DNA of 64,000 nucleotides. Origin: an uncultured SAR86 cluster bacterium (GTDB taxonomy: Bacteria; Pseudomonadota; Gammaproteobacteria; Magnimaribacterales; D2472). The translations under genes were made by a program, and so were the position numbers. Below are positions 36,146-54,841 of this stretch, one piece after another; position 1 is the first letter of the stretch; each line of letters opens with the position of its first letter. A model generated the notes under the pieces. The model saw nothing but the letters and a program-made list of their open reading frames with translations, searched no databases and was not told where the DNA came from. Location: NCBI GenBank assembly GCA_902593675.1, contig CACJJI010000001.1:1-64000 (forward strand), written 5' to 3'.

Positions 36146-36559
36146 ATGAAGAATCCATTTCACTTAGCTATACCTATCAATGATTTAGCTAAAGCAGCTG
36201 ATTTTTATGAAAACACCCTTGGGTGTCAGAGAGGCAGAGCAGGTGATTCTTGGATTGATTTTAACTTATTCGGCCATCAATTAGTTTGTCACTTTGTTAA
36301 AAAAGCTCATGCAGAAAACACTAATCCTGTTGATGGGGATGATGTTCCAATACCACATTTTGGAGTTATTTTAAGTTTCGATCAATTTGATATTCTTACC
36401 GAGCAATTAAAAAATAAAAAACAATCTTTTATTATTGAACCTAAAGTTCGTTTCTCAGGTCAACCAGGAGAACAGCGCACAATGTTTCTCAAAGATCCCA
36501 GTGGGAACGCGCTTGAATTTAAAGCCTTTAAAAACTTAGATAATCTTTTTGCCACCTAA
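36146..36559 (+). CDS. VOC superfamily (glyoxalase-like) protein
   Basis: 137 residues. Two beta-alpha-beta-beta-beta modules: FHLAIPINDLAKAADFYENTLGC at the start and FLKDPSGNALEFKAF at the end, where His and Glu metal ligands normally lie. The family covers dioxygenases, glyoxalases and resistance proteins; the reaction cannot be assigned. The 3' end overlaps the convergent SnoaL-like gene by 24 bases. Confidence 0.85.
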   Translation: MKNPFHLAIPINDLAKAADFYENTLGCQRGRAGDSWIDFNLFGHQLVCHFVKKAHAENTNPVDGDDVPIPHFGVILSFDQFDILTEQLKNKKQSFIIEPKVRFSGQPGEQRTMFLKDPSGNALEFKAFKNLDNLFAT

Positions 36560-37048
36560 GCTTCTAGAAATTCTTGGGTTGGAGCATTGGCCTGAAGATA
36601 ATGATCTATACATACTGCTTATTTTTTTAAAGACTGTTTCTTTAATAAGCCAATTATTATTCTCATCACGAACATATAAGTCTTCGTAGGTGCCAGTAAT
36701 ATAAAGATTAATATTTTTTAGAGTATCAATTAAATTATAGGATAATGACCAAAATCCCGATGCCTCGTTACTTGATAATAATTTAATAATTTCATTTTTA
36801 CCTGCATGCTGTTCAAGCAAATGATCATGACATGAATTAAGTTCATATTTTTTTACCATGGCTTTAGCTGAATAGAAGATACCAAAATCTTCAAAATTAA
36901 TGTATACATCATCCATACAAAAACAACTCAGAATATCAGCGGGTTTCTTTAAATCGCAAGCATTCCAATATTTAAATTTTAAATTTTTAATATTGCTAAC
37001 TGCATGAATTGATTCAACTCTTTCGTTGATATCCTGATTATTTCTCAT
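36536..37048 (-). CDS. SnoaL/NTF2-like fold protein
   Basis: 170 residues. IKNLKFKYWNACDLKKPADILSCF is the typical start of a SnoaL_4-type fold, and YEDLYVRDENNNWLIKETVF is its typical last strands. Such proteins are ring hydroxylases, isomerases or binding proteins; no catalytic residue can be assigned. It is divergent from the LexA-box gene with the operator 69-88 bases upstream of its start, so SOS control of both is possible. Confidence 0.75.
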   Translation of the reverse strand: MRNNQDINERVESIHAVSNIKNLKFKYWNACDLKKPADILSCFCMDDVYINFEDFGIFYSAKAMVKKYELNSCHDHLLEQHAGKNEIIKLLSSNEASGFWSLSYNLIDTLKNINLYITGTYEDLYVRDENNNWLIKETVFKKISSMYRSLSSGQCSNPRISRSLGGKKII

Positions 37049-37088: not shown

Positions 37089-37117
37089 TTGACTTAGTTT
37101 TAATAATGTTATTAAAT
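37089..37117 (+). promoter_or_regulatory. Sigma-70 promoter of the LexA-box gene
   Basis: TTGACT at 37089-37094 and TTAAAT at 37112-37117 are separated by exactly 17 bases. The predicted transcription start (about 37124) falls within the LexA box, so bound repressor would block it. Confidence 0.7.
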
Positions 37118-37136
37118 ACTGTATATATATACAGTA
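37117..37136. promoter_or_regulatory. Perfect LexA (SOS) box
   Basis: A 20-bp perfect palindrome TACTGTATATATATACAGTA, identical to the E. coli LexA consensus (CTGT-N8-ACAG core at 37119-37134 with the AT-alternating centre). It lies just downstream of the -10 box of the promoter and 11 bases before the ATG at 37148. Confidence 0.88.
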
Positions 37137-37147
37137 AAAATAATATT

Positions 37148-37381
37148 ATGAATAATTTAATACATTTAAACCCTTTAGATCCGATCTTTAATGAGTATGA
37201 GGCTTTTGTAGATAAAAGTGCAGGCTTAAAGACTATTGCATTCAAATACTTCGGTGCAGATATACAAAAAGCCATTGAATATTTAGATATTAGTAGCATC
37301 CAAGAGCCAAAAGACAGTGAACCCATTGATCTTAGTTTGGTTAATAACAAAGAATATTATCAACCTGAATTATTGCATTAA
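37148..37381 (+). CDS. Orphan small protein under a LexA box
   Basis: 77 residues from ATG 37148. A longer frame opens at 37064, but that would start upstream of the promoter and run through the operator, so I prefer 37148. No strong Shine-Dalgarno is visible. The product is acidic with an aromatic-rich C-terminus (EYYQPELL), has no cysteine or transmembrane segment, and I recognise no family; it does not look like SulA, DinI or ImuA. Its position makes it a probable SOS-induced protein, for example a division inhibitor or modulator, which is inference. Confidence 0.6.
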   Translation: MNNLIHLNPLDPIFNEYEAFVDKSAGLKTIAFKYFGADIQKAIEYLDISSIQEPKDSEPIDLSLVNNKEYYQPELLH

Positions 37382-37430: not shown

Positions 37431-37436
37431 TATAAT
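37431..37436 (+). promoter_or_regulatory. -10 box of the structured RNA / leader
   Basis: TATAAT within CTATATAATTT. At 17-bp spacing the -35 would be ATTTAA (37408-37413), which is weak and adjacent to the second ACAGTAT repeat. A transcript would begin near 37443. Confidence 0.5.
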
Positions 37437-37442
37437 TTAAAT

Positions 37443-37643
37443 AGATGTCGCATGTTCAAATTACTAAGGGGATTTGTGTATGCTTGTTTTAATACCCTTG
37501 CGCAGGAGGTGATCTTATTAGTATTTATATTAAATTAGAAAACGGAGGGTTCGCCTTTTGACAAGAGGTGAATTACCGAATTCGCCTATCAGACTCATCT
37601 GACTCTGATAGTTTGAAGCCTCCTTTGGGAGGCTTCTTTTTTT
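37443..37643 (+). ncRNA. Candidate structured RNA or attenuator leader of about 200 nt, class unknown
   Basis: This 345-base gap without a long ORF holds a promoter, several hairpins and a strong terminator. Hairpins: AAGGGGATT/AATACCCTT (37466-37499); TTCGCCT (37550-37556) with AGGTGAA (37566-37572), in competition with AGGTGAATT-ACCG-AATTCGCCT (37566-37587); TATCAGA/TCTGATA (37587-37610); then the terminator. Three GGAGG/GGGGA motifs are exposed between stems. A short reading frame at 37480-37512 would encode MLVLIPLRRR, preceded by AAGGGG and ending in AGGAGGTGA, which is complementary to the 16S 3' end. It could be a free sRNA (CsrA-sponge-like GGA motifs) or an attenuator for the EamA gene. 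It does not match 6S, tmRNA, SRP RNA, RNase P RNA or the common riboswitches I can recall. Confidence 0.55.
37615..37643 (+). terminator. Rho-independent terminator
   Basis: Nine-bp perfect stem GAAGCCTCC/GGAGGCTTC (37615-37623 and 37628-37636) with loop TTTG, followed by seven T. It is the strongest intrinsic terminator in the window and lies 84 bases before the EamA start. Confidence 0.93.
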
Positions 37644-37726
37644 AAGATAATTTATATCTAAATTATCAACCCAAAGCTTTTTTATTAGTTTAAAATTCAT
37701 CAATTTTTATAAGACTTATATATTTC

Positions 37727-54821: not shown

Positions 54822-54841
54822 TACTGTATGTATATATACTA
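54822..54841. promoter_or_regulatory. Degenerate LexA-like sequence between divergent genes
   Basis: TACTGTATGTATATATACTA has the left LexA half (CTGT) and AT-alternating centre but ATAC instead of ACAG on the right. It sits just before the TTG start at 54844 and 47 bases from the divergent microprotein start. Weak candidate for SOS or other control. Confidence 0.25.

Follow-up and report, generated by a model that had tools for sequence, protein, structure and literature searches.

SulA, SidA and other SOS division inhibitors are small LexA-controlled products. In SAR86, an abundant lineage of the sunlit surface ocean, I describe a small gene behind a perfect LexA box whose 77-residue product differs from these inhibitors in having neither a match to PF03846 nor a hydrophobic segment, and in ending with a motif of the replication type instead. 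The reading I favour, at a probability of roughly 0.6, is that of a LexA-repressed, damage-inducible small SAR86 protein that would bind the beta sliding clamp (DnaN). SocB, from the type VI toxin-antitoxin system SocAB of Caulobacter crescentus, is reported to bind DnaN by a clamp-binding motif, to block replication elongation and to accumulate with DNA damage (PMC9690074, PMC5812544, PMC7566177). As a clamp ligand that stops elongation, SocB offers a precedent for the SAR86 proposal, the two being compared by description and not by sequence. However, SocB is a toxin that is degraded by ClpXP with SocA, whereas the SAR86 gene is controlled by a perfect LexA box; no antitoxin-like gene was found among the five window neighbours scanned. 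RipA of Streptococcus pneumoniae is a toxin aimed at the sliding clamp as well, the target proposed for the SAR86 protein, but, again compared by description, it is half of a toxin-antitoxin pair from a species described as having no SOS response (PMC12795458).

Among the established clamp ligands, Hda, UmuC and Pol IV are described with short motifs of the same kind as the SAR86 tail; the QLELPF of some SAR86 members is close to the QLSLPL of Hda, and Pol II and Pol IV carry their motif at the C-terminus, as the SAR86 protein does (PMC11139829). In contrast to Hda, UmuC and Pol IV, the SAR86 protein has no polymerase or AAA+ domain but stands alone with its 77 amino acids, and most of its members deviate from the strict motif. 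A search of the literature on LexA and SOS in SAR86, on SOS-induced small proteins and on clamp motifs found no such family in titles and the starts of abstracts, much of the subscription literature lying outside its scope.

The window, that is the whole analysed stretch of 64,000 nucleotides (contig CACJJI010000001.1, positions 1 to 64,000, forward strand), belongs to a SAR86 genome of 1.5 Mb in 20 contigs. The features of the locus are listed in Table 1.

Table 1. Coordinates of the operator, promoter and gene within the window
Feature	Positions	Strand	Basis
LexA operator (SOS box), perfect 20-bp palindrome TACTGTATATATATACAGTA	37117..37136	.	0 mismatches
-35-like hexamer TTGACT	37089..37094	+	sequence; TTGAC at the same place in the genus
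-10-like hexamer TTAAAT, shares the first operator base	37112..37117	+	sequence
Gene of the 77-aa SOS-controlled protein, stop codon included	37148..37381	+	median dN/dS 0.10; 71 family genomes
Residues 1-47, conserved three-helix core	37148..37288	+	AlphaFold2; dN/dS 0.058
Residues 48-71, variable low-confidence linker	37289..37360	+	dN/dS 0.32 (residues 48-70); pLDDT
Residues 72-77, QPELLH, C-terminal sliding-clamp-type motif	37361..37378	+	relaxed motif in 69/70 members

An earlier note on this DNA had described a perfect LexA-consensus box on a TTGACT-N17-TTAAAT promoter, a small acidic product that it did not recognise, and a divergent SnoaL-like gene facing the box, and all of this stands. 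In 100 dinucleotide shuffles of the window, no site came within 3 mismatches of the consensus, and the spacer between the two hexamers is indeed 17 bp. The product has a pI of 4.5, with 13 acidic (D+E) against 6 basic (K+R) residues, and a Pfam search, PF03846 included, gave no match up to an E-value of 1. The divergent gene (36536-37048, minus strand) matches PF13577 with an E-value of 2.9e-11. The 77-aa frame runs from an ATG at 37148 to a TAA at 37379-37381, and an alternative reading of 105 aa from a TTG exists in the same frame. As the stop-to-stop frame in several relatives is only 78-85 aa long for a match of 75-77 aa, the shared protein starts at about the ATG.

The genome contains five sites within 3 mismatches of the LexA consensus, compared with none for a control pattern read backwards. 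Four of them have both the CTG and the CAG half, and these precede the 77-aa gene, umuDC (one mismatch, L059; UmuD by PF00717, UmuC by PF00817), lexA (two mismatches, L060; recognised by the LexA profile) and recA (two mismatches, L061; recognised by reading its translation). The earlier note had proposed to locate the boxes of the genome's own lexA and recA, which are thus in place, and the box nearest to the consensus among the four is that of the 77-aa gene. LexA itself was found in 50 of the 60 genomes searched, the window's own included. The fifth site (TACTGTATGTATATATACTA, 54822-54841, 3 mismatches) was rejected as the operator of an SOS gene, only its left half being intact; it directly precedes a 334-aa open reading frame without a Pfam family. 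With 2 mismatches allowed, a looser box pattern does not rise above noise, finding 5 real sites where the backwards controls find 4 and 3; it adds one site, C4:104866. I read the SOS regulon of this genome as consisting, by its boxes, of essentially four transcription units, one of them new, in an assembly that is 81% complete and may thus miss further boxed genes. Elsewhere in the same family (f1), the genome G112 of genus g5 has five LexA boxes and two UmuC-type polymerase matches about 5 kb apart (C1, 707235-712406).

A LexA box with 0 to 2 mismatches precedes the gene in all 71 f1 genomes that carry it, as the earlier note would have it for related genomes. The boxes at the 70 readable loci comprise 8 perfect ones, 58 with one mismatch and 4 with two, and the frameshifted copy in G161 has a box with one mismatch. 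The distance from box to start is 2-14 bp at 69 loci and 31 bp at one, where the choice of start is uncertain; these distances are short partly by construction, as the script was set to pick the nearest start codon following the box. Each of the 19 loci from the window's genus, the window's own among them, has a TTGAC 28 bp ahead of the box; at 13 loci from other genera the TTGAC directly adjoins it (27 of the 70 loci were left unclassified, and some of the 11 other genus-like calls are rough). The promoter layout differs between genera and the box stays, so the operator was retained as the surrounding promoter shifted. I also counted boxes in 35 f1 genomes (34 at least 85% complete, plus the window's own at 81%). 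The gene is present in 29 of these, which have three to five boxes each (24 with four, 3 with five, 2 with three), and the six genomes without it (G095, G028, G123, G132, G137, G147) have 2 or 3; in some of the six, assembly gaps could account for the missing gene. Judged from these patterns, I take it as nearly certain that the 77-aa gene is under SOS control.

Of 60 genomes searched by BLAST with the 77-aa protein, 27 gave a match, counting the window's own, and a profile search (E <= 0.001) matched 74 of the 203 genomes of the order: 71 from f1, again including the window's own and spanning nine genera, and 3 weak ones from f4. Two of the f1 copies are exceptional, that of G097 being truncated and without the C-terminal motif, and that of G161 frameshifted. 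In other genera, identity to the window protein is as low as about 29-46%, and the profile had no match in f2 or f3. Outside SAR86, 3 of 369 genomes of the class gave matches with E-values of 0.003-0.007, which I rejected as chance, with no CTGT-N8-ACAG nearby; phage records held no relative (tblastn, E 0.1), and none of 51 pattern matches in IMG/VR was confirmed as one. The family thus appears, by these searches, to be confined to SAR86, nothing convincing having turned up elsewhere.

The conservation of the open reading frame, which the earlier note had made a test of its claim, takes the form of strong purifying selection. Among 16 of the 19 members of the window's genus, those of exactly 77 aa (the others have 75, 76 or 78), the median pairwise dN/dS (Nei-Gojobori) is 0.10 for the whole protein, 0.058 for residues 1-47 and 0.32 for residues 48-70, all of them rough ratios since silent sites are near saturation (usable dS in 84, 76 and 81 of 120 pairs, respectively). 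Residues 69-77 show no nonsynonymous difference at all at a mean pS of 0.75 (56 usable pairs), and most of the genus keeps E-Y-Y at the end of the linker. The tail does vary across the whole genus, as the 78-aa member in G013 ends in QPELSF rather than QPELLH. The family alignments comprised 24 of the 27 loci (A1; one identical and two near-identical rows omitted), 55 sequences (A2; duplicates, near-duplicates, X-containing sequences and the G097, G161 and G193 copies omitted) and 20 sequences (A3).

The gene-by-gene reading covered 19 located boxes, those of f2 and f4 among them. Five of the six f4 genomes with located boxes have forms of 49-56 aa in which the box overlaps the start codon, and only one of these five short forms (L106, L109, L116, L118, L160) has a clamp-type tail, QKDLF. 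Given that they are mostly tail-less, the f4 sequences say that the core must have a role of its own without the tail. In f2 (L101, L111, L114, L115), the LexA box overlaps the start of a different protein of 62 aa, present in 4 of the 5 f2 genomes with located boxes and having, by eye, a hydrophobic C-terminal segment; no Pfam family reaches the cut-off with its L101 copy. This is possibly an SOS membrane micro-protein.

For the window protein, AlphaFold2 (55-row alignment) predicts helices at residues 12-19, 23-34 and 39-46, with block means of pLDDT of 89-93 over residues 11-40 and of 52 and 62 for residues 51-70. The same three helices are predicted for a diverged member (20-row alignment), the confidence of both models being moderate (mean pLDDT 74.8 for the window protein and 75.6 for the diverged one). 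The sensitive profile search that the earlier note had called for found no known family: the best E-value among the Pfam, NCBIfam and PHROG profiles was 0.0053, and any one family was matched by at most 4 of 24 members. A sequence search of the PDB gave a best E-value of 1.2, and all Foldseek hits against the PDB and a viral library had meaningless E-values above 0.9. Kinship to a known family or fold is rejected on these values.

The pattern Q-x-x-[L/F/M]-(x)-[F/L/I/M/V] occurs within the last 14 residues of 69 of the 70 readable f1 members, the exception being the truncated copy in G097, and in 3.4% of shuffled proteins; the 69 carriers are kin, and do not represent 69 independent events. 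Its forms are QPELL (18 members), QLEFSF (15), QPELI, QMEFSF and QLELL (5 each), QLAMF and QLEFTF (4 each), QLELF (3), QPELF, QLELPF, QLEFAF and QLEFRF (2 each), and QPELSF and QLEFLF (1 each). That the motif persists behind a linker of changing length, and across genera with so low an identity to the window protein (about 29-46%), speaks for a function. The published clamp-binding motif is Q-phi-x-[L/M]-[F/L] or Q-phi-x-[L/M]-x-[F/L], with a tolerant position 2; phage display selected LQLELDF as a clamp binder, and Phe, apparently at position 4, is reported to bind more weakly (PMC11139829). A general form is given as QxxLF (PMC12309361). By the strict motif, 14 of the 70 members conform and 50 depart from it at a single position (by a Pro at position 2, like the window's QPELL, or by a Phe at position 4), while 5, those with QPELI, do so at two.

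The UmuC proteins of the order provide a comparison with a known clamp ligand. In all 31 inspected (the window's own genome and 30 loci, out of 73 genomes with a UmuC match), Q-x-[D/S]-[L/F]-F stands at one fixed place. The forms in f1 are QKSLF (in the window's genome), QYSLF and QHSLF, those in f3 are QLDLF, QLDFF and QYDFF, and those in f2 are QGDLF, QADFF and QSDFF. Position 2 may thus be K, Y, H, G, A, S or L, and some proteins of f2 and f3 have a Phe at position 4, so that a loose position 2 and a Phe at position 4 both occur in the order's known clamp ligand. All 31 UmuC proteins lack a Pro at position 2, and the 9 from f1 also lack a Phe at position 4. As umuDC is present in genomes without the 77-aa gene, too, the two are not obligate partners. 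Taking tail and UmuC together, the 77-aa protein is probably a clamp ligand.

The co-regulation of the gene with umuDC and recA could also fit an adaptor or modulator of SOS proteins in the manner of DinI or UmuD: the three-helix core would bind RecA, UmuD or UmuC, and the tail would recruit it to the clamp, so as to tune translesion synthesis or terminate the response. DinI, too, is small and acidic, and the UmuC of the same genome has a clamp-type motif of its own. However, neither the sequence nor the fold resembles any solved protein, the gene is present in one genome without a detected UmuC (G154), and f2 and f3 have UmuC yet no match to the family. I consider this explanation unlikely.

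The deviation of 55 of the 69 motifs from the strict form could also mean that the tail is a degron or the ligand of another pocket, for instance a C-terminal peptide like that of SSB or a protease tag, and it would suit such a role that many members end in an aromatic or aliphatic residue and that LLH ends most proteins of the window's genus. Nevertheless, 69 of 70 members share the Gln and the clamp-like spacing, whether as a pentapeptide or as a hexapeptide, and residues that follow the motif in some of them (QPELFSENRCS, QLELPFN) indicate that a free C-terminus directly behind it is not needed. An acidic tip like that of SSB is absent by eye, and this explanation of the tail seems improbable to me.

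The earlier note suggested a damaging product such as a division inhibitor, which, like SulA, YneA or SidA, would block septation until repair, with the tail serving turnover or septum binding. Such inhibitors are a classic class of SOS products, the slot is empty in SAR86, where SulA was matched in 0 of 76 genomes, and the boxed 62-aa protein of f2 looks more like that class. The 77-aa protein does not: it has no hydrophobic segment by eye and no match to any Pfam family, and its best-kept part, the tail, resembles a clamp motif and is not known to match an FtsZ-binding or membrane motif. Kinship to SulA is rejected (PF03846 unmatched here and in the 76 genomes, with a positive E. coli control). 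The clamp-type tail points to replication rather than division, and this part of the note found no support; I give a division inhibitor a smaller chance still than another role for the tail.

That the box serves the divergent SnoaL-like gene, with the 77-aa frame incidental, can practically be dismissed: the box does lie between both genes, but no SnoaL gene was detected within <=1.5 kb each way at 13 of the 27 loci with both box and frame, so the reading was rejected on synteny, and the median dN/dS of the frame argues against it as well. With an EamA transporter gene kept downstream at 26 of the 27 loci, the operator can be assigned to the 77-aa gene. The SOS control that the earlier note proposed for this orphan extends to loci where the SnoaL gene is undetected.

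Between the 77-aa gene and the EamA gene lies a strongly conserved, structured non-coding element (core 37445-37573, plus strand), which with a TATAAT and a terminator spans about 37431-37645 and was detected at 26 of 27 f1 loci. In L020 and L021, where the element and the 77-aa gene are set apart by other sequence, it remains beside EamA. For 28 distinct sequences, RNAalifold gave -27.4; 30 column shuffles, a weak control that also breaks the sequence order, averaged -0.3 (sd 0.9, lowest -4.2). Many of the pairs are invariant, and covariation is found mainly in the 3' hairpins. The RNA alignment A4 comprised 22 of 29 extracted elements; L022 had none. No Rfam family reached its gathering score, the best below it being Phe_leader (30.8 bits against 55), and 6S RNA was rejected, as it lies elsewhere in the genome. 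A model of the element matched, under strict filters, 2 of 369 genomes of the class, both SAR86 of f1. It is a candidate for a new small RNA or a leader of EamA.

Returning to the clamp ligand, the proposed course of events is the following. LexA on the operator that covers the promoter would keep the gene off, until activation of RecA and self-cleavage of LexA release it. The product, predicted to be a small three-helix domain with a flexible linker and a C-terminal clamp-type motif, would insert this motif into the hydrophobic pocket of DnaN, to which Pol III and UmuC bind as well. At SOS levels it could compete for or share the clamp, resulting in slower replication and/or easier exchange to UmuC; alternatively, it could anchor at the fork some partner bound by its three-helix domain. 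An effect as a replication brake or in polymerase exchange is my tentative preference, at somewhat less than even odds, and a role as an adaptor for another partner is the more doubtful of the two.

A more speculative possibility, which I would not yet bet on, is that SAR86 has a dedicated damage checkpoint, in which a brake that occupies the clamp makes Pol III pause and passes the clamp on to UmuC. It would take the place of SulA in E. coli, stopping replication instead of division, and the sister families f2 and f4 would fill the same slot with other small proteins. If true, a stand-alone, SOS-induced clamp ligand would constitute a minimal replication checkpoint, with an interaction between peptide and clamp that is directly testable.
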